Below, one piece after another: positions 2,404-41,940 of a stretch of 64,000 bases of DNA (its first letter is position 1; each line of letters begins with the position of its first letter). The DNA is taken from positions 51,953,169-52,017,168 of the forward strand of contig OX485806.1 of the NCBI GenBank assembly GCA_950295325.1, given 5' to 3'. Position numbers and translations under genes: made by a program. The stretch is from Polytrichum commune. Lineage: Eukaryota; Streptophyta; Polytrichopsida; Polytrichales; Polytrichaceae. The notes beneath the pieces were generated by a model. The model saw only the letters and a program-made list of their open reading frames with translations, had not been told where the DNA came from and ran no database searches.

Positions 2404-2450
2404 GGGGAAAAACTATTTTGCGAGCGGTGAAAGGTGAGCGGTGAGCGGTA
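2404..2450 (+). repeat. Left terminal inverted repeat of MULE copy 1
   Basis: The sequence starts GGGGAAAAACTATTTTGCG and continues with repeated GAGCGGTGA units. Sixteen bases (CTATTTTGCGAGCGGT) are identical to the reverse complement of 19907-19922. The 9-bp target duplication lies immediately outside. Confidence 0.85.
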
Positions 2451-2749
2451 AGTTTTATAGAATATTGAACTTTTGTTAGGGTTTACATACCCTATGACCG
2501 CTAACTTTTGAAATATTTATATATTTTATTGACAAAAAGAACCTATATCCGTGGTGGAGGGAATTTTTTTGAATGGCAGTGCATGATAATAATGAAGCAC
2601 ATTACCGCTTACTATGGGATACTCAATGAATTCACAAACATTGGTCTATTTGAGCATATAATATTGTAGAAAATTTGGCGAAATACTATTCATCAAATGG
2701 GAACATATGCGGCATTGAGAAATGAATGGTAGTCAGTACAATGATTAAC

Positions 2750-4145
2750 TCAGCTCCCATCCGAGGAGTCTTCACGATCAGACTCTAGAGCTTCAATATC
2801 ACAGAACTCAATACATCTACATGGATAAGATTTAGGAATAATAGTACGATAAAATCCACTACCTCGTTCAATTGCAGTGTCATTTGCATAGGAAGGGAGA
2901 TCCCAAGTCTTTGGAGGATTTGGATAAAACGTAAGGTTACAAAAGAAAGGGCGGTGACTAGGATAGCTCATTGGTCCATATCTGCAAATTCCAAAAGCAC
3001 CATGGTTAGGGTTCCATATTAAATACAACGACGCTCAAAAGTAAAACAAATGTATGAGAAAATGTTCAACAAACTCACTTACTGAATCGAGACTTCTTCA
3101 CAATTCTCGGGACCACAACTACATCGCCCTCCAGGTCCTCACTACTTGGCGTTGCTCCAGAATTCACCTCAGGAGCAACACTCGAGCGAATCAAGGGTTT
3201 AAGTACGGCATGGAAAATGGCCTCATCAGCCTCTAATGCCACAATGTGACGCTCGACGTTGCGGGACGCATGGATGGAAGATCCTGCAATAACAAGAATG
3301 ACAATAAAATTAGTGTGATTTCTCTGGAAATAACAATAAATAGTTAAAGATGTGAGTTGGCAGATTGAATTAACATACCCGTAGCAGCAGTGCAGTCTAA
3401 AACAACATCTCCAGGGGAGGTAGAACTCTGAATTAACATTTGCATTAAAAGAGTAGACTTCTCTCTTAGACCTCGCCACGGCGTGGGTCCATTCATGAGC
3501 TGATCCTCACGAGAGACGAGGTTCTGTAGAATATCGTCTCTTGATACATCTACCCCGTGTCGGTCAAGAGCAGAAACAGGTTGAAATGAGAATTTGGAAG
3601 CAGGCTTGCCAGGCATGGTCCTCACCACCAATGTAATCCCGAAACGCATAGTCTACCATGGTCCAAAATTAATGAACTTGTCAACTGAGAACAATGAACC
3701 AAAAATATGAGAAAATCAATATGTAGCATTCGTGTCAAACAATGTTTTAAAATTGCACAAAAAACAAAGAGTAAATTAAATTAGAGAATTAACTTACAGT
3801 GACACCTTGATTAATCGGGGACGTCAGATGAAGGCAGTTCATACCCCACCACTCCTTCCGAACTTGAAAACCGAAACACTCACAATATCCAAGAATCATG
3901 GCTTTTGTAGTCATTCGAAAAGGGTGAAATAAAATGATGGCCCCGTCATCATGCAAATGGTTATCTGCAAAATCAAAGATTGGCTGAAGCCACTCGTCAG
4001 TTTCTTGATTCCAGGCAGGAATCGACGTTGGTGGGTTGGAGATCCCTGGAACGGGCAAGCCCTCTGGGATATCAGCAAATATCAAGTCCAAACAAGGTTG
4101 GACACCGGTAGTCCCCTTGTAGAATCGAATTTTGCTTTTGGAATG
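2750..4145 (-). pseudogene. Permuted (beta-class) DNA amino-methyltransferase, C-terminal four exons, MULE copy 1
   Basis: Four exons can be placed from splice signals and alignment to the copy at 39230-40710: 4145-3798, 3652-3379, 3283-3079 and 2981-2750. The order of motifs is that of beta-class N6-adenine/N4-cytosine methyltransferases. First comes the catalytic strand (DLIFADIPEGLPVPG, where DIPE stands at the DPPY position), then DDGAIILFHPF and GFQVRKEWWG. Next is a WRGLREKS block in the place of the usual HPTxKP, and then the SAM-binding motif GDVVLDCTAATG followed by RNVERHIVALEAD. An acidic tail ends DREDSSDGS. The reading is open across all four exons. N-terminal exons equivalent to 37072-38040 are not found upstream, where the tandem array begins, so the gene is probably 5'-truncated. 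Substrate and activity are inferred from the fold; the altered catalytic motif leaves them open. Confidence 0.72.
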
Positions 4146-6414
4146 CTGTTCAATAAACAAGCACACCTGGAAATTAGTACATCTCCACCAAAATATGGGC
4201 TTTCAAATGGACAAACATATCTAACCATATAACAAATTATCCTTATAACACATATATCTAACCTTATATGAGATTAAACTTACAACACACCTACCTAACC
4301 TTATATCATATTAATCTTATAAGACACCTATCTAACCTTATATCAGATTACCCTTATAACACACAAATCTAACCTTATATCAGATTAGCCATATATCAAG
4401 CCTATCTAACCTTACAGTTCAAACTAAATTTATATGAGATTAACCATAAAAGAAACCTATCTAACCTTATATCAGATTAACCTATTACCTCACAGTTCAG
4501 ATTAGCCTTATAGCAAGCATATCTAACCTTATATCAGATTACCCTTATATGAAGCCTATCTAACCTCATACCAGATTACCTTGATAATGTTCACTCAAAT
4601 CTAACCTAAGCTTATATCAGATTTCACTAACCTAAGCTTATATCAGATTTCACTAACTAAGCTTATATCATATTTAACTAACTAAGCTTATATCAGATTA
4701 TAACACAGAGTTATAACCTCATTTCAAATTACACCTATAACACACAGTTCTAACCTCAATTCAGATTACACTTATAACACACATTTCTAACCTCAAATCA
4801 GATTGACCTTATAACACACAAATCTAAAAGCATATCAGATTACCCTTATAAACCAAATATGTAAAATCACATCAGATTACACTTATAACACACATATCTA
4901 ACCTCATATTAGATTGACCTTATAACACACATATGTAACCTCACATCAGATTACACTTATAACAAACATATCCAACCTCACAACAGATTACACATAAAAC
5001 ACACATTTCTAACCTTATTTCAGAATGACCTTATAACACACATCTATAGAAATGTAGGTGGCAGAGTTTGAATACCAGAGAATCTGTCTCGGTACCGAGA
5101 CACTCAAACTCGGCCCTAACTAAGCTTATATCAGATTACCCTAACTAAGCTTATATCAGATAATCCTAATAACCAACATTGCAAATTAACCGTATATCAG
5201 ATTTACACATAAACACACACATTTCTAACCTTATATCAGATGACTTTATAACACACATATCTAGAAATGTAGGTTCCAGAAAATACCAGAAAATCTAATA
5301 CCAGAAAATTTGTCTCGGGACCGAGACACCTAAACTCGGCACTAACTAAGCTTATATCAAATTTAAGTAAGTAGGCTTATATCAAATTTAACTAATTAAG
5401 CTTATATCAGATTTCACTAACGAAGCTTATACCAGACTACCCTAACTAAGCTAATATCAGATGTCACTAAGTAAGCTTATATCAGATTACCCTAATACCC
5501 AACATTGCAAACTAACATGATATCAGATTACACTTATAACACACATATCTAACCTCACATCAGATTGACCTTATAACACACATATGTAACCTCACATCAT
5601 ATTACACTTATAACAAGCATATCCAACCTCACATTTGATTACACATAAAACACACATTTCTAACCTTATATCAGATGACTTTATAACACACATATCTAGA
5701 AAGGAAGGTCCCAGAAAATACCAAAAAATTTGTCTCGGGACCGAGACACCCAAACTCGGCACTAACTAAGCTTATATCAGATTTAAGTAACTAGGCTTAT
5801 ATCAAATTTAACTAATAGCCTTATATCATAGTAATAGTATATGAAGCCTATCTAAGCTTATATCATATTAGCCTATTACCTTACAGTTCAAACTAACTTT
5901 ATATGAGATTAACCATAAAATAAACCTATCTAACCTTATATCAGATTACCCTTATAACGCACAACCAACTAAGCTTATATCATATTATAACACGCAGATC
6001 TAACCTCATTTCAAATTACCCTTATAACGCACAACCAACTAAGCTTATATCAGATTATAACACGTAGATCTAACCTCATTTCATATTACACTTATAACAC
6101 AAATTTCTAACCTCATATCAGATTGACCCTACAACACATATATAACCTCACATCACATTACTAATGAAACATACATTTCTAACCTCATATCAGATTGCCC
6201 TTATAACCCAAATATCTAGAAATGCAGGTGGCAGAGTTTGAATACGAGAAAATCTGTCTCGGGGCCGAGACATTCAAACTCGGCACTACTAAGCTTATAA
6301 CAAATTGACCTTATAACACACATATCTAACCTTATATTAGATTACACTTATAACAAGCAAATGTAACCTCACATCAGATTGACCTTGTATCAAGCATATC
6401 TAAACCTCACATCA

Positions 6415-7712
6415 TATTACACTTATAACACACAAATCTAACCTCACAACAGCTTGACCTTGTATCAAGCATATCTAAACCTCACATCATATTACACTTA
6501 AAACATACAAATATAACCTCATATCAGATTGACCTTAATACAAGCATATCTAGACCTCAAATTTCACTAACTAAGCTTATCTCAGATTTCATTACCTAAG
6601 CTTATCTCAGATTTCACTAACCAAGCTTATACCAGACTACCCTAACTAAGCTTATATCAGATGTCACTAACTAAGCTTATCGCAGATTTCATTACCTAAG
6701 TTTATCTCAGATTTCACTAACCAAGCTTATACCGGACTACCCTAACTAAGCTTATATCAGATTTCACTAACTAAGCTTATATCAGATGTCACTAACTAAG
6801 CTTATATCAGATAACACTAACTAAGCTTATATCAGATTACCCTCACATCATATTACACTTATAACACACAAATCTAACCTCACAACAGCTTGACCTTGTA
6901 TCAAGCATATCTAAACCTCACATCATATTACACTTAAAACATACAAATATAACCTCATATCAGATTGACCTTAATACAAGCATATCTAGACCTCAAATTT
7001 CACTAACTAAGCTTATCTCAGATTTCATTACCTAAGCTTATCTCAGATTTCACTAACCAAGCTTATACCAGACTACCCTAACTAAGCTTATATCAGATGT
7101 CACTAACTAAGCTTATCGCAGATTTCATTACCTAAGTTTATCTCAGATTTCACTAACCAAGCTTATACCGGACTACCCTAACTAAGCTTATATCAGATTT
7201 CACTAACTAAGCTTATATCAGATGTCACTAATTAAGCTTATATCAGATAACACTAACTCAGCTTATATCAGATTACCCTCACATCATATTACACTTATAA
7301 CACACAAATCTAACCTCACAACAGCTTGACCTTGTATCAAGCATATCTAAACCTCACATCATATTACACTTAAAACATACAAATATAACCTCATATCAGA
7401 TTGACCTTAATACAAGCATATCTAGACCTCAAATTTCACTAACTAAGCTTATCTTAGATTTCATTACCTAAGCTTATCTCAGATTTCACTAACCAAGCTT
7501 ATACCAGACTACCTTAACTAAGCTTATATCAGATGTCAGTAACTAAGCTTATCGCAGATTTCATTACCTAAGCTTATCTCAGATTTCACTAACCAAGCTT
7601 ATACCGGACTACCCTAACTAAGCTTATATCAGATTTCACTAACTAAGCTTATATCAGATGTCACTAATTAAGCTTATATCAGATAACACTAACTAAACTT
7701 ATATCAGATTAC
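6415..7712. repeat. Three-copy higher-order repeat of 426-436 bp
   Basis: The units start at 6415, 6841 and 7277, each with CCTCACATCATATTACACTT; the next start at 7713 opens a different block. The units are nearly identical over their whole length, including a run of AAGCTTATCTCAGATTTCA modules, which points to recent segmental duplication inside the array. Confidence 0.85.
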
Positions 7713-8559
7713 CCTCACATCATATTACACTTATAACACACAAATTTAACCTCATATTGGATTGACCTTAATACAAGCATATCTAGAAATCACATCAGAA
7801 TGCACTTATAACACACATATCTAGCCTCATATCATAGTACACTTATAACAAGTATAGGTAGATATCAATAGCAACTATGATTGTAGGTAGTAGAGTTTGA
7901 ATACCAGAAAATGTGTCTCGGGACCGAGACACTCAAACTAGGCCCTGGAATTTCAGAAATTTCTAGGCTTATATGAAACTAGGCCGTAACTAAGCTTATA
8001 TGAAGTTACCTTATCTAAGCTTATATCAGACTCCCCTAACTAAGATTATATCAAATTGCATTAACTAAGCTTATCTCAAATTTCACTAACTAAGCTTATC
8101 CCAAATTTCACTAACTAAGCTTATCTTAGATTTCACTAACCAAGCTTATACCAGACTACCCTAACTAAGCTTATATTAGATGTCACTAACTAAGCTTATA
8201 TTAGATATCACTAACTAAGCTTATATCAGATTACCCTCACATCATATTACACTTATAACACACAAACCTAACCTCATATCGGATTGACCTTAATACAAGC
8301 ATATCTAGAAATCACATCAGAATGCACTTATAACACACATATCTAGCCTCATATCATAGTACACTTATAACAAGTATAGGTAGATATCAATAGCAACTAT
8401 GATTGTAGGTAGTAGAGTTTGAATACCAGAAAATGTGTCTCGGGACCGAGACACTCAAACTAGGCCCTGGAATTTCAGAACTACCTATCCTTACATTTAT
8501 ATCAGAGTACACTTACATCAGATTACACTTATAGCCCCAGAAGTCATAGTGAGGTGGTA

Positions 8560-9640
8560 GAGTTTGATAGTGTCAAATAGTGTCTCGGGACCGAGACACT
8601 AGAAATCAACTCTAAAATTCAATTTCAGACCTACCTATCCTTACAGTTACATCAGAGTACACACATATCATATTACACTTATAACCCATAAACTCAAAGT
8701 GAGGTGGAAAAGTTTGATAGTCTCAAATAGTGTCTCGGGACCGAGACACTAGAAATCAACTCTAAAATTCAATTTCAGAACTACCTATCCTTACACTTAT
8801 ATCAGAGTACACTTACATCAGATTACACTTAGAGCCCCAGAAGTCATAGTGAGGTGGTAGAGTTTGATAGTGTCAAATAGTGTCTCGGGACCGAGACACT
8901 AGAAATCAACTCTAAAATTCAATTTCAAACCTACCTATCCTTACAGTTACATCAGAGTGCACACATATCAAATTACACTTATAACCCATAAACTCAAAGT
9001 GAGGTGGAAGAATTTGATAGTCTCAAATAGTGTCTTGGGACCGAGACACAAGAAATCAACTCTAAAATTCAATTTCAGAACTACCTATCCTTACACTTAT
9101 ATCAGAGTACACTTAAATCAGATTACACTTATAGCCCCTAAAGCCATAGTGATGTGGTAGAGTTTGGTAGTCTCAAATAGTGTCTCGGGACCGAGACACT
9201 AGAAATCAACTCTAAAATTCAATTTCAAAACTACCTACCCTTACACTTATATCAGAGTACACTTACATTAGATTACACTTATAGCCCCTAAAGCCATAGT
9301 GATGTGGTAGAGTTTGGTAGTCTCAAATAGTGTCTCGGGACCGAGACACTAGAAATCAACTCTAAAATTCAATTTTAAACCTACCTATCCTTACACTTAC
9401 ATCTGATTACACTTATAGCCCCTAAAGCCATAGTGATGTGGTAGAGTGTGATAGTGTTAAATAGTGTCTCGGGACCGAGACACTACAAATCAACTCTAAA
9501 ATTCAATTTCAAACCTACCTATCCTTACAGTTATATCACAGTACACACATATCAGATTACAGTTATAACCCATAAACTCAAAGTGAGGTGGTAGAGTTTG
9601 ATAGTCTCAAATAGTGTCTCGGGACCGAGACTATAAAAAT
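8560..9640. repeat. ~150-bp tandem repeat, one palindrome per unit
   Basis: About eight units, each with ACCTATCCTTACA, a TCAGAGTACAC block, a GTGGTAGAGTTTGATAGT block, the TGTCTCGGGACCGAGACA palindrome and AAATCAACTCTAAAATTC. Spacing of the palindromes is 135-151 bp. Two alternating sub-types suggest a 300-bp dimer. This is the most regular part of the array. Confidence 0.85.
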
Positions 9641-11729
9641 CGGCAGTAATATTCAACTTCATAACTACCTTTCGTTACACTTTTATTGATTACACATATC
9701 ATAGTACACTTATAGCACACATATCTAATAGAAACAAACCCGAGAAAGTCATATTCATACCTAGTAACCACTGTCAACTCACAGTAGAGGTGGTTAGAGT
9801 TTGATATCAGATTGACCATACAAACACACAAATCTAACCTCATATCATATTACCCTTATATCGATCCTATCTAGTGTTATATCAGATTACCGTTATAACT
9901 CACAAATCTAGCCTCATTTCGGTTTACCCTTATATCAAACATATCTATACTCATTTCTAACCTTATATAATACACAAATCTAACCTCTTATCAGGTTACA
10001 CTTGTTACCCACATATCTAACCATAGATCAAAGTACCTTTATGACACCCATATTCAACCTCATATCATATTGACCTTATAACAAGCGAATATAACCTCAC
10101 ATCAGATAACAGATATAGCCCATATATCTAATCTCACATCAGATTACAGTGATATCACCCATATTCAACCCTAGTTCAGATAGACCTTACAACACAGATA
10201 TCTAACCTTAGATCAGATTACACTTCTAACAAACATTTCTAACATCATATCAAAGTACACTTATAACAAACATATCTAGATATCAATATCTACTATGATT
10301 GTAGGTAGTAGAGTTTGAATACCAAAAAATGTATCTCGGGACCGAGACACTCAAACTCGGCCCTGGAAAATCAGAAATTTCTAAACTTGCCTCATATTAC
10401 CCTAATACCCAAAATTGCAAACTAACCTCATATCAAATTGCACTTGTAACCCACATATCTAACCTCACATCAGTTTGACCTTAATACTAGCATATCTAGA
10501 CCTCACATCAGATTTCACCTATAACACAAATTTCTAACCTCATGTCTGATTACACTTGTATCAAACATATCTAGACCTCACATCAGATTTCACTTCAAAC
10601 ACACATGTGTAGTCTCATATCAAAGTACCCTTATACCAAGTAAATCTAGATTTCAATATCAAATATCATTGTAGGGTTTAGAGTTTGAATACCAAAAAAT
10701 GTGTCTCAGGACCGAGACACTCAAACTCGGCCCTGGAAAATCAGAAATTTCTAAACTTGCCTCATATTACCCTAATACCCAAAATTGCAAACTAACCTCA
10801 TATCAAATTGCACTTGTAACCCACATATCTAACCTCACATCAGTTTGACCTTAATACTAGCATATCTAGACCTCACATCAGATTTCACCTATAACACAAA
10901 TTTCTAACCTCATATCAGATTACACTTGTATCAAGCATATCTAGACCTCACATCAGATTTCACTTTGAACACACATATGTAGTCTCATATTAGGATACCT
11001 TTATACCCAGTATGTCTAGATTTCAATATCAAATATCATTGTAGGGTTTACAGTTTGAATACCAAAAAATGTGTCTCAGGACCGAGACACTCAAACTCGG
11101 CCCTGGAATTTCAGAATTTTCTAAGCTTAAATCAGATTACCCTTATACCCACAATTGCAAACTAACCTCATATCAGATTGCACTTGTAACCCACATATCT
11201 AACCTCACATCAGTTTGACCTTAATACTTGCATATCTAGACCTCACATCAGATTTCACCTATAACACAAATTTCTAACCTCGTATCAGATTACACTTGTA
11301 TCAAGCATATCTAGACCTCACATCAGATTTCACTTTGAACACACATATGAAGTCTCATATCAGAGTACCCTTATACCCAGTATATCTAGATTTCAATATC
11401 AAATATCATTGTAGGGTTTACAGTTTGAATACCAGAAAATGTGTCTCGGGACCGAGACACTCAAACTCGGCCCTGGAAAATCAGAAATTTCTAAGCTTAT
11501 TTGAATCTCGGCCCTAACAGAGCTTATATCAGGTTACCCAAACTAATCTTATATCAAACTACCCTAACTAACCTTATATCAGATTTAAATTACTTAGCTT
11601 ACATCAGATTACCCAAATACCCAACATAGCTAACTAACCCTGTGCTCATTATCTATGAAGTTGGCCTTATACAGTGTTAGCATTGGAAAGACCCCCTACC
11701 CTAAACCCAAAACCCCTTATCCTAAACCC

Positions 11730-11830
11730 TACTATCATGCTCTCCACATTATTCGTGGCGGCCGTCATTCTTATGGCCTTATTTGCTAATATATATTATA
11801 ACCAACAATGTTTAGAATGTATGTCTGTTC
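11730..11830 (+). promoter_or_regulatory. Conserved block upstream of the transposase gene
   Basis: About 85 bp (from CATGCTCTCCACATTATTCG to ATATATATTATAA) match the reverse complement of 34027-34110 in copy 2 at roughly nine bases in ten, although the flanking sequence has diverged. The block lies about 310-400 bp upstream of the transposase start in each copy, so it may be its promoter or 5' leader. It also encodes a short hydrophobic peptide (MLS-LFVAAVILM-LF) in both copies, but most differences change the amino acid, which favours a non-coding role. Confidence 0.5.
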
Positions 11831-14800: not shown

Positions 14801-14932
14801 TTTGCAAGGAGAAGAATTGTTGAATGAAAGAGTGGTGAGACTTTGTTTTTCTTTCGAGCCGCCAGCAGTTGGATTGCTGGGACTTTGTACTTTCTAGTCA
14901 CCGGCAATTGGCTTGCCGGGACTCCATAGCGG

Positions 14933-16516: not shown

Positions 16517-17054
16517 ATCCGGACGAGGCCAGTCCCCGGTTCCGCGGACCTCGGATCGGTCCCGGACTCCGGACAGGGCTAGGACACCGATCCGGCATCA
16601 GACTTCGGATCGAGAGGCAACTCCGAGTAGGGGCAAGGCCCCTATGACCCACGCCTCGCCGTCGTCTCCTCCGGACTGCCAAATGGTTAGTCCTTTTCCT
16701 CCGCCACCCTCCAGGGCGGCCTCCAACAGGGATCCGCGGACTGCCTCGATCTCAGGCGGGCAGAATTCGGAACAGCGTACCGGAAGCGATCCTTCTCCGG
16801 TCCGGAGCATCCGGAACCCCGGGGACCGTCTCCGGAACCCCAGGAACAGTTTCCGGAACCCCAGGGACCGGAACACCGCGGACCGAGGGGGCAGCAGATT
16901 CGGAGGACGAGATTGCCCCGTCTCCGAACATGAGGAGGATGCTCACGTGGCTGCAGAAGGCATCGCTGGGAGGGGGCTCATCCGCCGTCAGCGGACTCGG
17001 CAGTCACTCAAAGGAGGGATCGGCTCTGAAGAAGCACCGCTCTTCTTAGCTTAG
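16407..17054 (+). pseudogene. Arg/Ser/Pro-rich reading overlapping and extending the 14933 ORF
   Basis: This reading lies in another frame and overlaps the end of the 14933-16516 ORF. It is made of low-complexity repeats (DRSRTPDRARTP, RNPGDRLRNP) that arise from tandem TCCGGAACCCC units in the DNA. It could be the original C-terminus reached by a frameshift near 16500, since the composition continues smoothly from the basic tail of the upstream ORF, or it could be chance. There is no recognisable domain. Confidence 0.3.
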
Positions 17055-17479
17055 AAGGGCAACTAGATTAGTTAGGGAGAATAGAGGTAGGCAGGGAGGA
17101 CTTAGGAGTTTTTGAAGATGAGGAATAAAATTCTGCCTTGGATGTGTCAGCGGAAAATCCGGATCTTGATCCCGGAAATCCGGGAGAACGGGTGTAGTTA
17201 GGGTTTTCTTTCGGGGCCGCCGCCTGGGCCGCTGCCCTCAGATTAGGGATTTTGAGCCTCTACTTAAGGCTGAATAAGGAGTTGGGGAAGGGTTCCTTCT
17301 CCATTGTTGTATTTCGATTGCTCCTACTCTAATAAATTACTTGGTTTCTCACTCCTTGACTTTCCTTGATCGATGTTTGTATGGATGATCCGGAGATCGT
17401 TAGCGGAGGAGAGAGAGTATGAGGGATAGGAGTTCCGGATAGGAGATGGGAGAGGAGACCCGGATCTGATCCGGTTATT

Positions 17480-19906: not shown

Positions 19907-19930
19907 ACCGCTCGCAAAATAGCTTCGTCC
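19907..19930 (-). repeat. Right terminal inverted repeat of MULE copy 1
   Basis: The reverse complement reads GGACGAAG and then CTATTTTGCGAGCGGT, matching the left end. CTAGTGAGA follows at 19931-19939 as the right target duplication. Confidence 0.85.
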
Positions 19931-20452: not shown

Positions 20453-20456
20453 TAAA

Positions 20457-29433: not shown

Positions 29434-30006
29434 TGCAACGACGCTACCGTGTGAGCGGCGAGCAGAAAAAAATCAACACTTAGAAAAAAAATCTAAATTT
29501 AGAAAATCTAAATAGAAAAAATTGTGGGACCTCTTTTTTTAGTAAAAACGTTGGACCTATTACCGTGTAAATTTTGAGGGCTTTAAGGACAAAGACTTGG
29601 TTTTAGGGTTTCTTTCAGAAAGACTAGTTGACATGATCTAATTAAACCAGGGAACTTTTGACTGTCCATATTATGGTGAGAGCTTCTTAATCATAGGCTA
29701 AGGTCACAATGTAAGAAAAAAATCTAAGTCATAAAATTCAAGCATTCAAGCAAAGTAGCAAAAATCGTACCGTTCAATAACATCTAAAACTACCGTTGGA
29801 AGAAGAGACCCATAAATATTTAGAAACCTTTATAAATATTTAGAAGCGAATACAATTCACATCATGTAGATAATGATAGGTTTGATATATCAGCGATATT
29901 TTCGGAAAATGTGCATTCATACTATAGTATACTCAACGCAATAGGAAATACTTAGTGTGAACTTATAAATAAGGGGGGGGCAGCCTAGCTCCTATGGGTA
30001 TCCATG

Positions 30007-33000
30007 CTAAGGTCCCACATGCTTCATGATGCCACTTTCGAGGAGGTGCTTCACTTCATTGAAACTAAGACTCGAAGCATGGATGAAAGTTTCTTGGTAT
30101 TGATCCAAGTTGCAGGTCACACGGAAGATGAAGTACAAGTGCTTGCAGTTCACCCAAGTGCGCCGCTTCCCAAGTGCTCTTGCTGACATCTCCACGAAAT
30201 CCGGGCATGTGCACGACGGGAAGGTGCTGATAGTGATACGGTACTCCTCAACCTTAGCCTTCTTTCGGGACTGGAAGAGAATGATGCACCCGATCCCTGG
30301 GTGAGGTATCATTGTGACGGAGGTGATTTGTCCGTCGATGTTGAGGGTTGACTCCCACTTGTTGCGTTGTTGGAGACATGGTCCGTTGTTACTGCGCCGG
30401 ATCTTCTTTCCAAACCTCAGCGTAGGGTATTGATCGGCTTGGGCCGGGGTAGGGAGTTCGGCCATGGATGAGGCAACATTGGAGGAGTCGCCAAAGAGTC
30501 TTCTGGGTGAAACATCTTGACGCTGTTGAAGTTGGAATCCCCCTTCTTCAAGGGCCAGAACCTCTTGGAGAGTGAGGTTTGTCCCAGTGAGGACAGGCCA
30601 GATGTCCGAGACATCCGGACGGTGCTGCACCCACTTCCTCCTAGTGCCTTTGACACATCTCTCAATGTCGTCGTTGCAGAAGAAGAACCATGTCAAGAAT
30701 TCTTTGTTCTTCTTGTAGTCGCGCATGTAGTCGGTGTACGTAGGAGTTGGAGTACTTTTACCATGCCGAACGATCTTCTGGGTGCACTTGGTCTTTGTGC
30801 GGGCTTGCATGGCGAAGCAGGCCTTGGCGGAAGTCTTGGGCAGTCTAGAAATGTGCCACTTGGAGACATCGCAATGGGTCTCCTGAATGTTATTGACGTG
30901 GGTGACCCGTTGTGGAATCGCTTTCTCGGGTGATTGTGTTAGGGGCAGGTCCGATGGTGTGGCGGAATCAGTACGGGCCGTGGTTGACCTAGTGCTCACT
31001 CGTGGATGAGAGAAGCTGACCTTGTAAGGTCTATGTGAATCCTGATCAGAACCAGGGGGCATATCAAGTGTGCGCTTGGTGGTGCCAAAGACCTCCTCTC
31101 CTTCGAGTTGGGGTTTGCGGGTGCACCAATGCTCTGCTCCAGGCCTGTGCTCGAGGGCTGCAACAATTCTCTTGGCGTCACCGGATCGTTGTGCAGCACG
31201 GAGGCGGAGTTCTTCTTTTCCAGGGCTAGTAACAGAGCGATCACCCTTCAAGTAGGCGTAGTAGTTAGTACATTGCATGAACGCCCTCACGAAATCATCC
31301 ACGGTGGCAACATATAGATTAGAGCCACGGTTTCCAGACTGCTAAAGCCATTTGTTGTGGACTGTCTCAGAGAGGTTGCAAGAAAAAAACAAGAGATCTC
31401 CGCCAACTCGAAATCTGTGAAATTCTGAGAGAAATAAATAAAATGCAGTGAGTACGCTTTGCACAAAATCTGGCTAAAAGCCTAAACTGATAGTGGTATT
31501 CTGGAGATTTACAACATATGACAAAAGAGGTTTAATAGGAGAAAAAAAATTGACACCAAAAAACGAAATAGAAAGTGGATGGTACACTCACTAGTTGCAT
31601 GAAACCACCCCATTGACGGTAACGAAAGTGCCAAAATGCAAGCCATGTATCAAGGTCCTTGATTCCTTCCTCGGATGCAGCTCCAAAAGAAAGCCACCAA
31701 GCCCGAATGGCAAGATAACGGGACTCGGACTGCTTGGGAGTCTTGGCATCCTTGTACTGCTTGCATAACAACTTGTGTTGTTGTTGGAGGTCGGGCTTGA
31801 TGTGGGTGGCGGTGTGGTGCTCCATAGACACTGTCCAATGCAATAGACATGTCCTCTCGTGAGACTCCATAGGAACCTTGGGATCACCACTGCCATAGAT
31901 AATCCTAACTGCATTCCAATTTTCTTGTGCACAGTCCACCATGAACCCTTTGAAGTTAACTTTAGCAATGCCATGTCTGTGCATAACTTCATTGAGCCCA
32001 TGCCAAAGAAGGCTCTGCGCCGTGACATCCTCAAACTGCATATCACATACTGCAATAGTCATAACCCGGCAGTAGGCCGAGTCATAGACATGGCAAGCCA
32101 TGGTTGTCCACCCCTTGACACGCTTGACATGGTCAAACATGACCCAAGCATCCTACAAATCACCGTGTGGTTGCATTCTCCTGACAAGGTCAACTCCAGA
32201 TCCAGGGCCCACCTCGGACATCTTGAATACATAGACTTTCTCCAACAACTTTCTTTGGCCAAGGAATTTATTTTCTTGCACATAGGGCCAACTGCTATGA
32301 CCTCTGAGTCCGGTGATGCTGTCAATGATCCCCCCTCGCCCAATGCGCTTGAAGGAAGTGACTGTGTTTCGAATACTAGGGGTGCTGAGGTGTTGGTACG
32401 TGTCCATGACAAACTTCATGGACTCAAGGTCCATAATTTTATTGGGATCATCACCCGTGCGTAGAAGATACTTGGCAAGGAACTCTTTACTTGCAGCCAA
32501 TGCAATCGCAGAGTTGGTGGCGGTGGGAGTCCTCTCAACCTCTCTACCAATGAGATCATGAATTTCGACCTTAGACTCTCTACATACACCTAGCGAAACG
32601 GGGTGATGGTGATGACCCATATGGATGCATGCACGGGTCATGTCACCTTTGCCAAGAACATAGTACATCCTAGCTTGGCAAGTATCAAGACAATAGGGTG
32701 GTGTCTTACAGACCTTACAAACGAGAGATGATCCAGATGGGGGATCAACACCTGCGGAGAAGGGTGAGGCGGTACAGCCTTCCCATTCGGTCTCGTTGAC
32801 GTTAGTGGCTCGATGAGGGCGGTTGAGATAATCACGAAGATGGCCAACACAACATGAAAACCGGAAGGTCAAGCCGAGATCATTGGTAATATTAGACGTT
32901 TTTGTCCTACACCAAGCATGACCGTCGAAACGCTTGTCCATTCCGAACATGAGTCTAGCATGGGAATGGGGAGCATCAGCTCCGAGGGGAGAGAATTCAA

Positions 33001-33670
33001 AGATGACGTCGCCGTCAAAAACAGATGGGAGGAAGTCAACCTTCTCATGCCTAACAGATTCATAATCAATGTTCTTGAGGATGTTCTTGGACCCTGGTCG
33101 GGTTGCAAGCAACTTCAAGTGGTGGACAACACTCGGACGATCTTTAGAAACACCTGGGTGAACTGGGGGTCTGGAGTTAGATGGTTGACTTACAGTAGGC
33201 GACTGTGGAATCCTTAGAGGATTGATGAAGGGCTGATCTTGCGTTGGAGGTGGGGTAATGTCAGAGGCAGGTGGCAAATCATCATCAGAGTCACTGAGCA
33301 AGGTAACCTCTTCGATGCCGGACTCCTTCTTGACCGTCGCCAGAAGAGGAACCTGCGTGGTGGACGTGAGGGACACACCTGGTGTTAGCAACATAGTTGT
33401 GGTGGCCATATCCGACTCGGTGACGCCTATGGCCTTGTACGTTCCAGGGATCAAGAACCAAACTCTACCATCGTCATTGCGAAACGATATCTGAAGGACA
33501 GTGTGACTCAAGTCACAGTTAGCATCAAAGACCTCTTCTTTGACATGAATTGAGGCTAGGTGGAATCTAAACCTCAAACTAAGGAACGACTCTGTGACTT
33601 TGGCTAGACCATCATCTCCTAGAGGGATCATAAGCGGGATGGAATGGTGCAGTGCTCGGATGGTGGCCAT
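30007..33670 (-). pseudogene. MULE-type DDE transposase with SWIM zinc finger, copy 2 (nearly full length)
   Basis: Exon 1 is 33670-31592, the intron 31591-31425 (GTGAGT...CAG), and exon 2 31424-30007. Domains in order: an N-terminal strand-rich region, an acidic patch at residues 125-132 (LSDSDDDL), a WRKY-GCM1/FLYWCH-like cluster at residues 318-356 (C318, C321, C331, then H-rich GHHHHPV), and an RNase H-fold DDE core. The core has candidate Asp at about 530 (CHVYDSAYCRV) and about 579 (FMVDCAQENW), RTCLLHW, and Glu in NLSETVHNKW after the intron. The SWIM finger (SCTCPDF and NCKHLY) lies about 45 residues before the C-terminal end. Breaks: TAG at 32155-32153 where the 1-780 fragment has Glu, a T-rich frame break near 31385, and TAG near 31341. 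The order of WRKY-GCM1-like finger, DDE and SWIM is that of MuDR-type transposases. Confidence 0.87.
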
Positions 33671-34026
33671 TGTAGAAGCAACGTGAATGCGAGTTCACAG
33701 AAGGTAGTGGCCAAATGGGCAATGGACTTAAGGTGACCACAAAGTGGGGCGGTGTATATAGTGTTGTGATTAGAAGGCCATGGCAAGATGGAATCTATGA
33801 ATGACGGCGGAGACTTGGATTAGTAGTGGAATAATAAGCCGATTCATTATAGCAATGTGAATAAAAATTGAAAATGCACTGCAGCATTTACTTAAGTTAG
33901 TCATGATCATATGCCAATCCAAATTAGATATATCAATACCAAACAATGAGGCTGGATGCCGACTGACAAACTTATAAATACACCAGACCACGTGAACCAT
34001 TTAGTGGATGTAAGGGACATTATAAT

Positions 34027-34110
34027 ATATATTGGTAAATAAGGTCATAAGAATGACAGCCGCCACGAATAATATGGAGAGCATGATAGTAGCTATGCAA
34101 TAATAAATTC
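34027..34110 (-). promoter_or_regulatory. Conserved block upstream of the copy 2 transposase gene
   Basis: This is the reverse-strand counterpart of 11730-11830 (CATGCTCTCCATATTATTCG on the minus strand). Its conservation between otherwise diverged upstream regions suggests promoter or leader function. Confidence 0.5.
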
Positions 34111-34135
34111 TAAACAATAGAGTGCTATATTGTGA

Positions 34136-34564
34136 TTAACGACGAAGATGCTTATGGGGCCCTTTGCCATTTTTGTCACCGTCATGTTTATGACAACGGT
34201 CAATCCCTAAACTATGAACTGCAGTGCATCCTGCGCAACCGAGTTCTTGACCTTTGGGACGTGGGGCACTCCTTAATAGAGATCTAGAGTAAGTGCCCGG
34301 TTTAATAACCCCTACTCTAGAATAGGCATGAGTCTGTAAAGTATACTTGTCCTCTATCAGTGTTGCATCATCCGCCTGCAAAGAGGGAGTCCGTGGATGT
34401 GGAGTGTGATCTGCGACCGCCGGAATAACTGAGCAATCAGGTGGGTTGGCAATCTTCATGTTGTTGACGTCTGCAGAACCATCAATGGACAACGTGGTGT
34501 GAATTTGAGATGAACTAGGAGCACCTAAAGGAGCAAGGCTTGGGAGACTTGAGTCAGTACCCAT
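34136..34564 (-). CDS. Small hypothetical protein (142 aa) of MULE copy 2
   Basis: The start was chosen at MGTDSSLPSL; the reading is open further upstream to 34627. The protein is Ser/Pro/Thr-rich and ends in a Cys/His/Lys-rich tail (GCAGCTAVHSLGIDRC, then HKHDGDKNGKGPHKH). It lies upstream of the transposase in the same direction. No counterpart was found in copy 1 and I do not recognise a family. It could be an accessory protein of the element, a captured exon, or a chance reading. The spacing of Cys residues is not a known zinc-finger pattern. Confidence 0.3.
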   Translation of the reverse strand: MGTDSSLPSLAPLGAPSSSQIHTTLSIDGSADVNNMKIANPPDCSVIPAVADHTPHPRTPSLQADDATLIEDKYTLQTHAYSRVGVIKPGTYSRSLLRSAPRPKGQELGCAGCTAVHSLGIDRCHKHDGDKNGKGPHKHLRR

Positions 34565-34627
34565 TGGAGAAGAATATGATGAGATGACATGAAGGAATGG
34601 GAACAAGCAATCGGGTATTATATACAC

Positions 34628-35095
34628 CTAGGGTAGACACCAATGCCCGAATATTTGATTACCTGTTAGATCAATACATAGTCAATATTTATTTATGTAA
34701 ATGTTGGACAACTTGTTTCATGTAGGAATAGAATGTAAGACAACAATAGTCAATCCTTTATCACCACCAAATATCTAACATGGCAAGATTCGAATATGTA
34801 AAAGAGGTTTTAACACCGCCTTTTGTAGTGTATTAATGCAGTGTGGATTAACCGAGGGATAATTTAAGAAGCCTCAGATTAATTATCTAAAACCAATGTG
34901 AACATAATTATCTAAAATGTGAACATAATGATGGCGCAAAGATGTTAATTATGACAGACTTGACAATGATATATAAGATATGTTTGCTTCGGTATTGTTA
35001 GAGATGAACACTAGGTCGAGAGCGAGAGCAGATCGAGAAGTTAGAAGGAATATTGAAAAATAGAGGCGTATTAAGAGAAGGCAAAGGTTCGAATA
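34628..35095. other. No gene seen
   Basis: AT-rich sequence between the small ORF and the presumed first methyltransferase exon. A run of CGAGAGCGAGAGCAGATCGA lies near 35013. Nothing else is recognisable. Confidence 0.5.
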
Positions 35096-35859
35096 AAGAG
35101 AGAGCTTAGGGACGCCGTACAACTTGCGGACAACAATGGGTAGACGAGGGGTTAATTCTGCTAGGGGCACAGGTAGAGGTTCCAAAGGGGGAAAAATGTT
35201 TGATGTCTCAGCGGTAGCTCCGATCATTTTATTTCCTGTATCGGAGGAAGACAACCCAGTTGACAAAGGGGGCAGTGAGGTGTTGATTATCTGCAAGCCT
35301 AATGACATTTTTTTTATGTGTATTCACGGATAGTTAGAATAATTGACAAACATTAACTTCCATCGGCTCCTTTATATTGTATTTTATCTTTGGTGTGGGA
35401 TTGTGAATTGGGTTTGGGTTGGGCATCTGGAAGAGGGACTGACGCAGACACAGCTTCAACCTGGGGCAGCCTCAAGTGCCTCCACATCAGATGAGAGTGA
35501 GGAGCAGGTTTGTAAATATTGAACTCAATTGGTGACTTTTAGGGCTATTGGTTTAGGGTAAGGTTTCTTTCCAAAGCTAACGCTGTCTGAGGCCAACTTC
35601 ATAGCTAATGAGCATAGGACATATACACTTAACAAAGCCTAGGAGAATTTGATCGCGGCGCTGATGTGGGTGATCTTCGAGAAGCCAACATTGACAATGA
35701 AGAGCAACACTTCGGGGAAGAGGTAGGTTGTCCCACCCATAAATAATTGAATGTAAATTTTTGCTTAGTGTTCGAAGAGACAAGGCTGTGAAATGAAATA
35801 TTATGGATTCTAGGTCTCGGCCCCGAGAGAGACTCGGCGAAACCTATCGGTGCCAAACC

Positions 35860-35965
35860 CCACATTTCAGGTGAGGGTGAGGGTTGAGGGTGAGGAGGAG
35901 GGTGAAGAGGAGGGTTGAGGGTTGAGGGTTAAGGTTGAGGGTGAGGGTTGAGGTTGAGGGTGCGA
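35860..35965. repeat. Short GAGGGTGAGGGTT-type tandem repeat
   Basis: About 100 bp of imperfect GGGTGAGGGTTGAG units, just after a GGTCTCGGCCCCGAGAG palindrome at about 35813. Telomere-like in look only; the unit is not TTTAGGG. Confidence 0.7.
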
Positions 35966-36119
35966 GTCAACGGCTTTAGGGATGGCGCACCAAGGAACGG
36001 CATTTCACAATCTGGGGGCCGAGAATAAGGACCGAGTACTGTTACTTCCAATGTATGTTTGTTTGGTTTCAATTGAAATATCAGGGATATCCTTGTTCTT
36101 ATGTTAGTAGTTTGATATT

Positions 36120-36712
36120 TGAGTGAATTTGATTTCAGTCTGAGGGTATGTGGGGGTTGAGGGGAATCTGGTAGGGGGTTAGGAGTTTGAAATTTGAGTG
36201 AATTTGATATCGGTCTGAAGGTATGTGGGGGTTGAGGGGAATCTGGTAAGGGGTTAGTAGTTTGATTTGTGAATGAATTTGATTTGAGTCTGAGGGTATG
36301 TGGGGGTTGAAGGGAATCTAGTAGGGGGTTAGGAGTTGATATTTGAGTGAACTCGATTTGAGTCTGAGGGTATGTGGGGGTTGAGGGGAATCTGGTAGGG
36401 GGTTAGTAGTTTGATTTTTGAATGAATTTGATTTCAGTCTGAGGGTATGTGGGGGTTGAGGGGAATCTGGTAGGGGGTTAGGAGTTTGAAATTTGAGTGA
36501 ATTTGATTTCGGTCTGAGGGTATGTGGGGGTTGAGGGGAATCTGGTAAGGGGTTAGTAGTTTGATTTGTGAATGAATTTGATCTGAGTCTGAGGGTATGT
36601 GGGGGTTGAAGGGAATCTGGTAGGGGGTTAGGAGTTGATATTTGAGTGAACTCGATTTGAGTCTGAGGGTATGTGGGGGTTGAGGGGAATCTGGTAGGGG
36701 GTAGGGGTGTCA
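36120..36712. repeat. Eight-copy 75-bp tandem repeat in MULE copy 2
   Basis: Units contain GGTATGTGGGGGTTGAGGGG, AATCTGGTAGGGGGTTAG and TGAATTTGATTT. GGTATGTG recurs at about 36145, 36220, 36295, 36368, 36444, 36519, 36594 and 36668. The array lies upstream of the first well-supported methyltransferase exon, in a likely intron or 5' region. Related units recur at 36820-36950 and 38310-38640. Confidence 0.9.
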
Positions 36713-36739
36713 TTTTAAAATTTTGCTATAAATCTGAAA

Positions 36740-38470
36740 TTGAAATGTAGGTCTCAGAAAGAATGTCTCGGCCCCGAGACACTCTTTTTGGGCTCTAATA
36801 TTTGAATGAGTTTGATATGACTGTGACGGTATGTGTGGGTTGAGGGGATCTGGTAGGGGGTTAGGAGTTTGAAATTTGAGTGAATTTGATTTCAGTGTGA
36901 CGGTATGTGGGGGTTGAGGGGAATCTGGTAGGGGGTAGGGGGTAGGGGTGTCATTTTTTAATTTTACTATAAATCTGAAATTGAAATGTAGGTCTCAGAA
37001 AGAGTGTCTCGGCCCCAAGACACTCTTTTTGGGCTCTAATATTTGAGTGAGTTTGATATGACTGTGAGGGTATGCCGATGTTGTTGCCCGCGTATATCGA
37101 AGACTGTCGCATGAAGTTATGGGAGCAGGAGTTCAACACATATTTCAGAGGACACGATTCCTTCAAAAAAGGTGACGACTTTGTTGGATTTAACGGATCT
37201 GACCTACTTGTCCGCAGAGTTTTTTTTAGGTACGTCTCAAATCTTGAAGTACTTCTCATTAATTTCAGTAATTCTTTCAGTTGATATTATGTGAGTTGCT
37301 ATTTCTAGAATTCTAGAATGTAATGTTATGTGTTATTTTGTAACACAGGTACTTTAAGTACGAGTTTTTGGCGAAAGGCGCTATTTCCAAAGAAGACCTT
37401 CCTGTATTCTTGACCACATGGCTTGATAGATCAAATTCAGCGTTCATGTTCTCAGCTCTTCAACAACGCACGTGGACAACTTCTCACCTTACCGGCGGTG
37501 CCTAGTATCTTGATTGCGCTCCAAGTTTTACTCCTTCTTTTGAGACTGAGCTCAGAAAGTCAAGGGAGGATGTAGGTGATTCTGGAATTGAAATGTTGGA
37601 TTTACAGGGCATTGAAGATGAGAATGAGAGGGCAAAGGCAATGAAACGACGCATCGAAGAAGACCGAAAGAAAACGCTGAGGGTCAAGGAGGCTGAGGAG
37701 AGAGCTGATCAAGAAGAGCGGGAGAAGCACCAGAAGTCACTGGAGAAGTCCACCAAGAAGGGAAAAAAGAAGATGAACCCCCCCAAAGCCAAAAGGTAAG
37801 AGTCCCGTTGCTCCAAGTCCCACATATGAATCTGGTTCTCATGCTCCAACATTTTCTAGAGGAACCAAACGCGATTCCTCCTACGAGCAGTTGAGTCAAA
37901 TTCCTATTTTGACATCGGGGGAGGATCTCGAGATCCAACTTCAAGAGCTCATTCTCAACTCCTCAATGGAAGACGTTCTTGGCGGTGACACGGGTGAATT
38001 CACCCCTTCCTACAACGAGTTGAAAAGATTCATGCTTAAGGTACTGCCCTTCCATAATGTTGTCATAACAGGTTTGCCTTCAAATTTATGCATTTCAATA
38101 TGGTCCAAAGTTTTCATTAAGTAGGTACTGCCTTTCATATTTCAGCAATCGGAGGATTTTGTTTCGGAACCGAAACATGGATAGAGTAACTGTGATTGAT
38201 ATGTAGAGTAGCAAAACTACAGGAGGGTACAAAAATGTATAATGAATTTTGAGTCCAAGTACAAGGTTTCGGTCCCCGAACCTGGTATTTAAGTTTGAGT
38301 CCAAGTTATCTGATTTGAATTTAAGGGTAAGTGTGGGTTTAGTAGAATCTGGTAGGGGGTAAGGGTGTCATTTTTGAATTCAGTTAGTAATCTAAAATTG
38401 AAATCTAGGTCTCAGAAAGAATGTCTCGGCCCCGAGACACTTTTTTTAGGCTCTAATATTTGAGTGAGTT
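36740..38470. repeat. Palindromic CTCGG/CCGAG cassettes, copy 2 series
   Basis: Cassettes lie near 36763, 37004 and 38421, with a variant near 35813. The core is TGTCTCGGCCCCGAGACA (one copy has a CCCCAAGACA change). Each is preceded by GAAATGTAGGTCTCAGAAAG or a close variant and followed by a T-rich stretch and GGGCTCTAATATTTGA. This flanking pattern parallels the cassette in copy 1. Confidence 0.8.
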
Positions 38471-38639
38471 TGACATGACTGTGAGGGTATGTGTGGGTTG
38501 AGGGGATCTGGTAGGGGGTTAGGAGTTTGAAATTTGAGTGAGTTTGATATGTCTGTGAGGGTATGTGGGGGTTGAGGGGAATCTGGTAGGGGGTTAGTAG
38601 TTTGATATTTGAGTGAATTTGATTTCAGTCTCGTAGGGG

Positions 38640-39090
38640 GTTAAGGGTTTTGCTTTTAAACCTGGTTTTTAAGTTAGACTTCAAGTATAAGGTTTCGGTC
38701 TAAAACTTGGTTTTTATGTTTGAGTCCAAGTTAGGAATCAATCTCAGTCTAGTATTTCATTATGAATGTTTTTTTTGGTCCCGAACCTGGTTTTTAAGTT
38801 ATAGTCCAAGTATAAGGTTTCGGTCTAAAACCTGGTTTTTAAGTTTGAGTCCAAGTATAAGGGTCTGAAACCTGGTTTTTAAGTTTCAGTCCAAGTTAAA
38901 GGTTTCATGCTCATTCCAGGATCTCAGTGTGAATGTTTTGTTTCGGTCTGAACCTGGTTTTTAAGTTTCAGTCCAAGTTTAAGGTTTCAGTCTCAGGGTA
39001 GGATTTCAGTGTCAAAGTTTTGTTTTAATCTCAACTTGGTTTTTAAGTTTCAGTCCAAGTTTAAGGTTTCTGGTCAAGTCACACATCATC
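38640..39090. repeat. Tandem AAGTTT-AGTCCAAGT repeat in a methyltransferase intron
   Basis: Imperfect units of about 50-70 bp with CCTGGTTTTTAAGTTTCAGTC (19-21 bases, variable) and CAAGTTTAAGGTTTC recur in the intron between 38040 and 39230. No coding potential is seen. Confidence 0.75.
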
Positions 39091-40710
39091 AGGGAGATTT
39101 ATGTATTGTGGATGTTGTAGAGTTAGGCTGAATGGAACTAGTTGAATGCTTGTTCTATTCACCCTAAACTTGGTTTTATTGAAGTCATTTGTCATGTATT
39201 AATTGTGACAATCTCTTTTGATTGTGCAGCACTCAAAAGACAAAACCCGGCATTACAAGGGTTCTCCGGAGGACCATCCCTGTTTGGACTTGATTCTTGC
39301 AGATATACCGGAAGGTCTTCCTGTTCCTGGCATATCAAACCCACCGTCGTCTATTCCCATTTGGAATCAAGAATCGAAAGAGTGGTTACAACCACTCTTT
39401 GACTTTGCCGACGAACATCTGCACGACGACGGGGCAATTATTTTGTTTCACCCTTTTCGCATGAGTACAAAGTCCAATATTCTTGGATATTGCAAATCGT
39501 GTGGTTTTGCAATTCGGAAAGAGTGGTGGGGAATGAACCGCCTTCATCTCACATCCCCAATAAATCCAACATCAACTGTAAGATAAAGCTTAAATCTTCT
39601 TTCTGATCACCGCATTCAGTTTCAATTTCATCCTTGAGGTAGTTCTGAGTGTAGACCCACCTAACTATTATACTCACGCAGTTGTGTTGTTTACTTTGTA
39701 AAGTAATATTGATCTTTATGTTTGGTACATTGTAGACCATGAGGTTCGGTATTTCATTGGCGGTCAGGAGCCTGCCGGGGTCACCTGCATCAAAGTTTTC
39801 ATTTCGCCATGTCCTTGAATTGGATCCTTATGGGGTGGATGTTGCACATGATGATATTCTCCAGAACTTGGTCTCTCGTGAGGACCAGCTAACTAATGGA
39901 TCCACACCATGGCGAGGGCCTCGTGAAAAGTCCATGCTTCTAATGCAAATGCTAATTGAAGCATGTAGCTCCCCATGGGATATTATTCTAGACTGCACGG
40001 CAGTGACCGGTATGTCTTTGTAATCTTCCATTTCAGCTGGTTAATGGTTAATATTGTTTTGCTCTACAAAATTCATAGTGGTTTTTGTACTAAATTTTTC
40101 CAACTTCTTTATTTGCAGGATCTTCCATTCATGCATGCCGCAATGTGCACCGTCACATTGCGGCATTAGAGGCTGATGTTGATATTTTTGAGGCCTTACT
40201 TGCTCCATTGATTATCTCTAGAGCAGCCTCTGAAGTCACTCTTGAAGACCGTGTCACCAATTTAGAGGATCATGAGGGTGAAGATATCCCCGTTGAGAGG
40301 ATTGTGAAGAGATCTCGGTTTACTAAGTGAGTATGGTCCACAAATTCTCTTACCAGTGTTATGTTTTTTGCTGTCATTTCTTCTAAAGTTGAGTTATGAA
40401 CATGGTACCATTGGCATTTGCAGATGCGATAAATTGAGCTATCCTATTCACCGGCATTTTTTTGTGACCCTAAATTCTATCCCAGCCCTCCAAAGTCTTG
40501 GCAACTTCCTACATATGCAAATGATATTGCTACTCAACTAGCTGGAGGTTTTTATCAGATTTTTACATCTAAATATCATCCGGGAAGAGTTTTAGAGTTT
40601 TGGATATAGAAGCTTTAGAATCTGATGGTCAGGCCTCCTCTGATGCAGATATTAATGATTCTAGAATGTCTTCATCATCAGGTGATCACAGTGATTCGGA
40701 TCTAATGTAA

Positions 40711-41890
40711 TAGCTTCATGTGAATGTCTGTGTACTATCTAATATATCGTTTTTTCTTCCGTTGGTTTTTCAGTTTGTGCACTCATTCCGCATGAAATTC
40801 ATTGTATTTGTATTACTTTCGGAGTTTATGGGATTGCATATATAATTTAAGTTAACTTTTGACTTCGTATTTTCTTATATTGTTTAAAATAATTTTGAAC
40901 ACCACTTGGTTACTTATTAACGTTTGAGTTTACGATTAATTTGATTGTTCATCACTTAATTCCATAATCGGCCTATTAGTTCATACCCCTCTCTTTTAAA
41001 TTTAAGGGTTTCCACTATTATTCTATTATCGTTTTCATATATTTTTTCAATGATTGCTTACGATTTTAGGCGAATGCTGGGTTGAATAAATGACCCTAAA
41101 CCATCAGTGTCACCTCATGAAACTTGGCATTCAAGTGTCTTTACTAATATCTCGGCATGAGTATGTTGAACAATGATATGAGGTGCACACCTATATTACA
41201 CAATGGTCTACAAGTTGACTAAAGTGTACACCAACGACACTTGACATTGGTATGCTCAAGAATATCTTCCCCTTGCATACTTCAACGTGGTCTAACAAAC
41301 TTTTAGTACATGTAGATCCATTTCTAGTTAATTCTACTAGAATAATTCAAGGTCTTTGATCTTGATTAAGGTGTTAATTGGGTTTAGAACAGTCATTCAC
41401 ATGTTCTACATGATAATTAGTTTCTTTGCTCTCCCCTTTAGTAGGTGTCATGAAACTTTAATCCCAATGAAGGATCAAACATTATGGCAATACTATAAGT
41501 TGAAGGTGACAAAAAGTGAATTGTTTAATATAGCTTAGGTTTTCACTTATTAAGACCTACTTTACTTTAGAATCATGATCATAGATATACTCCAAATGAG
41601 GTTAGAATATGCAATTTCAATGCCAAAAACTTCCAGGTTCTTATAATACTTACATATCAAATTTACTTCTAAAATTTGAAATAAACAAATTTTGTGAATG
41701 GTAATATCTCACGGTCATATCTCACGGTCATAGGGCCTCATTGGTAATTTTAAAAACCTTTTTGGTTCTAGAAATTGGGCACTCCACAAATATGGGCCTT
41801 GTAATTACAAAATTAAACTTGAAATATGTGCAAAATCCACGGTCATAAGGGTCCTAACTTTCGAACAATAGAGTTTTAAATTAAATTTTT
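40711..41890. other. 3' region of MULE copy 2, no gene
   Basis: AT-rich sequence between the methyltransferase stop and the right terminus. It includes two CACGGTCATA boxes near 41712-41740 and one at 41837-41847. The short readings at 41356-41538 have no conserved features. Confidence 0.6.
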
Positions 41891-41940
41891 CTGCTCGCGA
41901 GATCTGCTCACCGCTCACCGCTCACATCGTAGCATTCCTG
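41891..41940 (-). repeat. Right terminal inverted repeat of MULE copy 2
   Basis: On the minus strand it reads CAGGAATGCTACGATGTGAG followed by CGGTGAGCGGTGAGCAG. GTGAGCGG and CGAGCAGAAAAA are shared with the left end at 29434-29470. Confidence 0.8.

Follow-up and report, generated by a model that had tools for sequence, protein, structure and literature searches.

Does a methyltransferase gene found inside a transposon belong to that transposon, and what could the element use it for? Few transposons are known to hold genes for DNA methylation, and it is seldom known by what means an element distinguishes its own DNA from that of its host. The question is raised by a stretch of 64,000 nucleotides from the moss Polytrichum commune (C4:51953169-52017168, here called the window). 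In this window two plausibly Mutator-like elements (MULEs), copy 1 and copy 2, each combine a transposase gene with a gene for a protein of methyltransferase fold, here termed MT. Almost certainly, the MT gene is an integral part of the transposon. It was under purifying selection, and copies of a palindrome, TCGGNNCCGA, lie in the non-coding parts of all eight complete elements that were read.

Two divergent genes in one element

According to the original prediction both copies share one plan, and the pairing of the genes is a property of the element and not of one locus. In both copies the MT-like and the transposase genes are indeed divergent, each directed at the nearer end. A search of the genome (407.8 Mb, 64 contigs) with the terminus of copy 1 found 40 places, including the one in the window (40 scored of 132 candidates). 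Seven other terminus loci of 3.2-3.3 kb were fetched; MT exons lie inside six of them, and for the seventh one is listed 2.8 kb off. The search with MT gave 213 matches (115 scored of 2456 candidates), and for the transposase 95 of 2533 candidates were scored; counts taken from these lists of places hold among the matches listed. A correctly oriented transposase was present within 35 kb at 25 of the 82 places with MT exon A and a wrongly oriented one at 2, compared with a mean of 0.36 and a maximum of 3 in 500 trials of random placement. The 22 places with exon B only that entered the terminus and pairing counts were our own selection from the MT matches listed.

Ten elements (E1-E10) were picked by hand from the list of transposase matches and read over 20 kb each, and E11 was picked by hand from the copy-1 lineage, with 2 kb in its middle unread; neither choice was random. 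MT is held by E1, E2, E6, E8, E9 and E10. Both ends were found for E1, E9, E10, E6, E8 and E11, which together with copies 1 and 2 are the eight complete elements. All six have terminal inverted repeats and perfect 10-bp target-site duplications (ATCATAACTT, ATTAAGAAAA, GTTGGAGAGG, CAAGCGGGAC, CATGATAGAC and GCGAGAGGCC, respectively), and all six carry both genes in divergent orientation. The pairing thus recurs as predicted at several loci, where MT adjoins the termini opposite the transposase and target-site duplications are present. A chance pairing is ruled out by the shared ends and duplications. E10 (loci L027 and L028) is seemingly inserted in the N-terminal MT exon of another, more distant MT element with the motif DQPEGLAVPG; therefore such elements seem to nest in one another.

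Between copies 1 and 2 the ratio of non-synonymous to synonymous substitutions (dN/dS) was 0.10 in exon A (116 codons), 0.125 in exon B (91), 0.33 in exon C (67) and 0.34 in exon D (48), with a synonymous divergence (dS) of about 1.6 in exons A and B. The values of 0.10-0.13 in these two core exons show purifying selection on MT. Copies 1 and 2 represent two transposase lineages, which are about 50-53% identical. The transposase of E11 is 89% identical to that of copy 1 and 53% to that of copy 2, its MT 72 and 95%, respectively. E1 and E6 have transposases with 97% and MTs with 47% identity. These crossed identities show MT as an exchangeable module that occurs with different transposase lineages, and suggest that it moves among them as a unit. 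A bacterial-type methyltransferase fold is here a selected, exchangeable part of a moss DNA transposon family.

For copy 1 the predicted span and 9-bp duplication were borne out, with the following features:

2404-19930: copy 1, complete element; terminal inverted repeats GGGGAAAAACTATTTTGCGAGCGGT / GGACGAAGCTATTTTGCGAGCGGT and 9-bp duplication
2395-2403, plus strand: left target-site duplication, CTAGTGAGA
19931-19939, plus strand: right target-site duplication, CTAGTGAGA
2752-4145, minus strand: MT-like gene; exons A about 4145-3798, B 3654-3379, C 3284-3077, D 2977-2752
4185-11654: non-coding spacer; tandem repeats of 25/37/75/100/150/370/436 bp
12145-19486, plus strand: transposase gene, decayed, split by a nested insertion; C-terminal zinc-finger-like pattern CxCx(n)CxH
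14394-18429: nested 4.0-kb insertion in the transposase gene, foreign to the element; 8-bp duplication CAGTATAT on both sides

The MT exons A-D have open frames, GT/AG borders and matching phases; N-terminal MT exons were not found by tblastn in this copy. The CxCx(n)CxH pattern was read by eye from the DNA. The nested insertion starts with GTGGGAGTCC, ends with CGTGTCCCCA and encodes an open frame of 528 amino acids without Pfam match.

The features of copy 2 are:

29436-41940: copy 2, element with both terminal inverted repeats; ends CAACGACGCTACCGTGTGAGCGG and CAGGAATGCTACGATGTGAGCGG
30007-33670, minus strand: transposase gene; stop at 32153-32155, frame break near 31400, C-terminal part open
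37093-38052, plus strand: MT gene, exons of the N-terminal domain; 37093-37233 and 37347-38052 (one stop, one frame break)
39230-40709, plus strand: exons of the MT domain; A 39230-39577, B 39736-40009, C 40119-40326, D about 40424 to 40709, frame broken
35817-38435, plus strand: four TCGGNNCCGA palindromes, at 35817, 36768, 38164 and 38426

The N-terminal MT exons were located by tblastn of P0004/P0010 and of element E6, and the transposase translation shows the CxCx(n)CxH pattern (CTCPDF...NCKH). The ends agree with those of complete relatives; a target-site duplication was not found in the two flanks. Matching termini of the two copies, as predicted, apply in so far as the ends of copy 2 are those of the family, while the likeness between copy 1 (GGGGAAAAACTATTTTGCGAGCGGT) and copy 2 (CAGGAATGCTACGATGTGAGCGGTGAGCGG) is partial. 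Both copies are decayed.

Elsewhere the window holds the repeat pairs 20984-21407 / 41961-42382, 23083-23919 / 45959-46905 and 50841-51140 / 58184-58483, inverted and direct, with 83-96% identity; these are perhaps other transposable elements. A tandem array with units of 34-35 bp (58536-59823) lies outside copies 1 and 2.

Methyltransferase fold and transposase label

Exons A-C of the copy 1 MT matched PF01555 at 39.1 bits, with a gathering cut-off of 26.7. The MT of copy 2 stayed under this cut-off with 23.6 bits, P0005 reached a score of 35, and six other MT relatives were below the cut-off or without match. No family besides PF01555 was detected for MT above its Pfam cut-off, and the extra N-terminal domain had no Pfam match. 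In alignment with CcrM-like proteins the motif order is permuted, IV-X-I, as in the beta-class, and the predicted structure is close to CcrM, MboIIA and rotifer N4CMT. A first structure prediction from a 7-row alignment was poor (predicted local distance difference test, pLDDT, of 50), its best Foldseek matches being already beta-class enzymes; a 94-row MT alignment was misaligned (exon fragments) and left out. Matches in a viral structure library were mostly DNA methylases of phages and pandoraviruses with low identity, some rows being unnamed or otherwise named. The named protein relatives are hypothetical proteins of Ceratodon purpureus.

The aromatic residue of motif IV stacks on the flipped base. 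None of the 86 MT relatives, among them 55 that span motif IV, has the canonical form, (D/N/S)PP(Y/F/W). All 55 have another residue in place of the aromatic one of DPPY: E in 53, M in one and K in one (the latter two being P0043 and P0045); both window copies have DIPE. Enzymatic activity is doubtful because of this replacement. The original designation as an amino-methyltransferase therefore agrees with fold and motif order, but as a statement on an active enzyme it is unsupported, motif IV being non-canonical.

For the transposase no Pfam MULE, Mutator or SWIM model matched at 1e-3. PF00872 (Transposase_mut) was weakly matched by two of 36 transposase relatives (best E 0.034), and pieces scanned against Pfam at E 10 gave weak unrelated matches alone. 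A Pfam scan of the single open reading frames of the window found nothing, since MT is split among exons and the transposase is without a model. At least 137 related clusters exist in public data for the N-terminal part (P0096 and following). Among the matches listed, a precomputed Pfam domain was present in 0 of 120 of them; therefore the whole transposase family seems to be without a model. MULEs are recognized by terminal inverted repeats, which are present here, and by target-site duplications of 8-11 bp; 9 bp were found in copy 1 and 10 bp in the six other copies with both ends. Given these two features and the CxCx(n)CxH pattern the predicted label of a SWIM-type MULE is plausible, although it was not matched by the Pfam models.

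A palindrome in the non-coding parts

All eight complete elements carry minisatellite arrays in their spacers and around the exons of MT, with array units that are unrelated between lineages. TCGGNNCCGA occurs 11 times in E1, 13 in E9, 14 in E10, 29 in E6, 24 in E8, 7 in E11 (2 kb unread), 15 in copy 1, all of them in its spacer (5089-11455), and 4 in copy 2, with 0.05-0.12 expected per element. Of 133.5 kb in total, 42.0 kb matched coding sequence, and these contain none of the 117 sites. Incomplete elements contain the palindrome as well (E2 11, E3 26, E5 15, E7 22). The window has 19 sites (0.26 expected in all), every one of them inside the two elements, and none was present in the other 31.3 kb counted. 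As TCGGNNCCGA had first been noticed by eye, the test was extended to every palindrome with arms of 4 bp and a gap of 0-6, 1792 in total. It reached at least 44 times the expectation in eight of eight elements, the runner-up, which overlaps TCGGNNCCGA, at least 6 times.

The 117 sites comprise 33 distinct 20-mers. Their core, TCGG..CCGA, is constant across lineages, whereas the outer arms differ by lineage yet are mostly complementary (GTCTCGG..CCGAGAC, GTTTCGG..CCGAAAC, GGTTCGG..CCGAACC, CTGTCGG..CCGACAG and GCCTCGG..CCGAGGC). Outside the core, the outer positions 1-5 are complementary in 28, 30, 24, 25 and 12 of the 33 20-mers. No site was detected in 22.5 kb of element flanks, those of E10 belonging to another MT element, and eight terminus loci of 3.2-3.3 kb, used as control, gave one, outside the element. 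In a prospective test the 4.4 kb 5' of MT at three previously unexamined loci were compared with three arbitrary places; 6, 8 and 6 sites were counted versus 0, 0 and 0. In the new sites, complementarity at positions 1-4 was seen in 13, 13, 10 and 12 of 14. Rare in the other sequence examined, the palindrome would be a defined candidate target for self-recognition of the element.

Proposed mechanism and known systems

With a confidence somewhat short of even we favor a Mutator-type transposon with an MT-fold accessory protein that may bind the palindrome, for self-recognition against silencing or for transcription control. The two integral divergent genes are the transposase and MT, the latter with its own N-terminal domain and a beta-class amino-methyltransferase fold. 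A protein encoded by the element, most likely MT, would bind TCGGNNCCGA as a dimer and thereby identify the element's own DNA. The fixed core with its conserved dyad suggests a dimeric binder, and methyltransferases of beta-class fold often act on palindromes. Bound or marked DNA would keep the promoters of the element open against host silencing, or would time transposase production. Less surely, given DxPE in place of DPPY as the catalytic motif, MT may act mostly by binding (DNA plus S-adenosylmethionine) and not as a methylating enzyme. Its action would then resemble that of VANC in VANDAL elements, but MT would derive from a bacterial-type methyltransferase. The anti-silencing role inferred in the original prediction, and with it self-recognition, is unexpectedly supported by the TCGGNNCCGA arrays, which resemble VANC target motifs; an active methyltransferase is the part that is unsupported. 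One protein and one oligonucleotide would suffice for a direct test both of self-recognition and of the role of a methyltransferase without the usual catalytic motif.

Several observations weigh against this reading. In the 20-kb reads E3 and E5 have the N-terminal MT domain alone, and E4 and E7 are without any MT within 20 kb. E2 holds MT exons, yet a search with the end motif did not locate its terminus on the MT side. Among the matches listed, no MT lies within 7 kb at 11 of the 40 terminus places, one of which (L006) does contain MT exons, and no transposase at 57 of the 82 MT places. Younger copies are less constrained, with dN/dS of 0.34-0.66 over several exons and, for L002 versus copy 1, of 1.6 at a dS of 0.017. 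Regarding the palindrome, E4 has no TCGGNNCCGA, and the control site in L006 (position 3004, CCTCTCGGATCCGAGAGG) lies about 1.3 kb beyond the end of the element and may be part of another, unseen element next to it. The MTs of E11 and E6 are 94% alike and their arms different, so the arms do not simply track the MT type. The 117 sites are not 117 independent events, because array sites copy one another and the elements fall into few lineages. The DNA mark may never be written, motif IV being non-canonical, and the palindrome may be tied to the transposase and not to MT.

Possible, if rather unlikely, are palindromes that serve as binding sites of the transposase, as transposition enhancers or copy-number regulators, with MT having another task. 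The eight complete elements all have both the transposase and the palindromes, and the same core motif is kept where elements share the transposase but differ in MT. However, the sites fill the internal spacer and the MT introns with no concentration at the cleaved ends, sites near the MT-side end (about 258-681) are present in only five of eight elements (E1, E9, E10, E6, E8), and the motifs of introns and tandem arrays resemble VANC targets.

We consider it improbable that MT is an active DNA or RNA methyltransferase, forming N4-methylcytosine (4mC) or N6-methyladenine (6mA) in the case of DNA, that marks DNA or transcripts of the element, with DxPE as a functional variant of motif IV. Such activity would agree with the residues retained, namely D and the second P of DPPY, the lysine of motif X, the glycine-containing motif I and the acidic residue of motif II. 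Furthermore, divergent MT types have DxPE in common, therefore this place seems to be under selection, and a eukaryotic 4mC enzyme with beta-class fold is described (PMC8885841). In contrast, the base-stacking residue is absent in all 55 relatives covering motif IV, and exchange of Ser and Tyr of SPPY for Ala is reported to have abolished the activity of N4CMT (PMC8885841). Doubted slightly more is the narrower case of a TCGGNNCCGA-specific methyltransferase, which would modify the palindromes of its own transposon with 4mC or 6mA, an unusual amino-methyl mark. If true, this would be a eukaryotic transposon with a modification system, akin to the modification half of restriction-modification, shielding its own copies from host silencing.

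There is little probability that no protein recognises the palindromes and that they either act through a hairpin or cruciform in DNA or RNA or arose as a by-product of minisatellite growth. The arms vary with complementarity mostly kept, and many sites lie within tandem arrays, as would be expected, but the core is identical across lineages with unrelated repeat units, where a pure hairpin core would drift, and none of the 1792 palindromes approaches TCGGNNCCGA save its own overlap. Passive capture of MT as a host gene, as in Pack-MULEs, with a pairing by chance in the window, was rejected as practically untenable: MULEs are prone to pick up fragments of host genes (PMC6446971), and the host may have a native PF01555 gene, but MT is a multi-exon gene with many copies (213 matches from the 115 scored candidates), purifying selection and common ends and duplications.

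Transposons with DNA-methyltransferase genes and MULEs with accessory genes are already known. MURB of MuDR is one such accessory open reading frame. A table of the MULE survey lists the plant mobile domain, SET and an ovarian-tumour gene as others (PMC6446971). The elements described there have a SWIM-type transposase, as is plausible here, and are similar to the present ones in a second gene next to it that is often antisense and in duplications of 9-10 bp, but the main text of that survey has 0 occurrences of 'methyltransferase' (PMC6446971). As originally predicted, no MULE with an amino-methyltransferase was found among the matches listed in the open literature, bioRxiv being outside the scope. 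New to us is a MULE-type element that would combine a methyltransferase fold with altered motif, module exchange and a palindromic self-motif.

Methyltransferase genes on eukaryotic transposons are described for DIRS retrotransposons with Dam-like adenine methyltransferases and for retrotransposons with cytosine DNA methyltransferases (DNMTs) in dinoflagellates and charophytes; DNA transposons with a DNMT are mentioned for marine viruses (PMC5890265). The enzymes of the retrotransposons come from different methyltransferase families, and CG methylation by the DNMTs has been demonstrated (PMC5890265), whereas the present family is a DNA transposon with beta-class fold and altered catalytic motif. 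With CcrM, DpnA/M1.HpyAVI, MboIIA and bdelloid rotifer N4CMT, MT has the order IV-X-I, PF01555 and the fold in common. Unlike these it has DxPE for DPPY/SPPY, an additional N-terminal domain and multiple exons, and lies inside a transposon. Marchantia DN4MT1, a 4mC methyltransferase compared by description only, is likewise a bryophyte amino-methyltransferase of bacterial origin, but is reportedly without extra N- or C-terminal domains and sperm-specific.

The closest functional parallel would be VANC21 of Arabidopsis VANDAL21, which is described to bind short motifs, with methylation loss following in those elements; its motifs build up in non-coding regions and introns as tandem repeats form (PMC5735166). 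An accessory gene on a MULE-type element, dense arrays of short motifs in non-coding parts of its own element and lineage-specific variants are features of both systems (PMC5735166). In contrast, the VANC motifs (YAGTATTAY, AGTTGTCC/AGTTGTAC) are non-palindromic while TCGGNNCCGA is palindromic, and the accessory protein here has the PF01555 bacterial-type methyltransferase fold.

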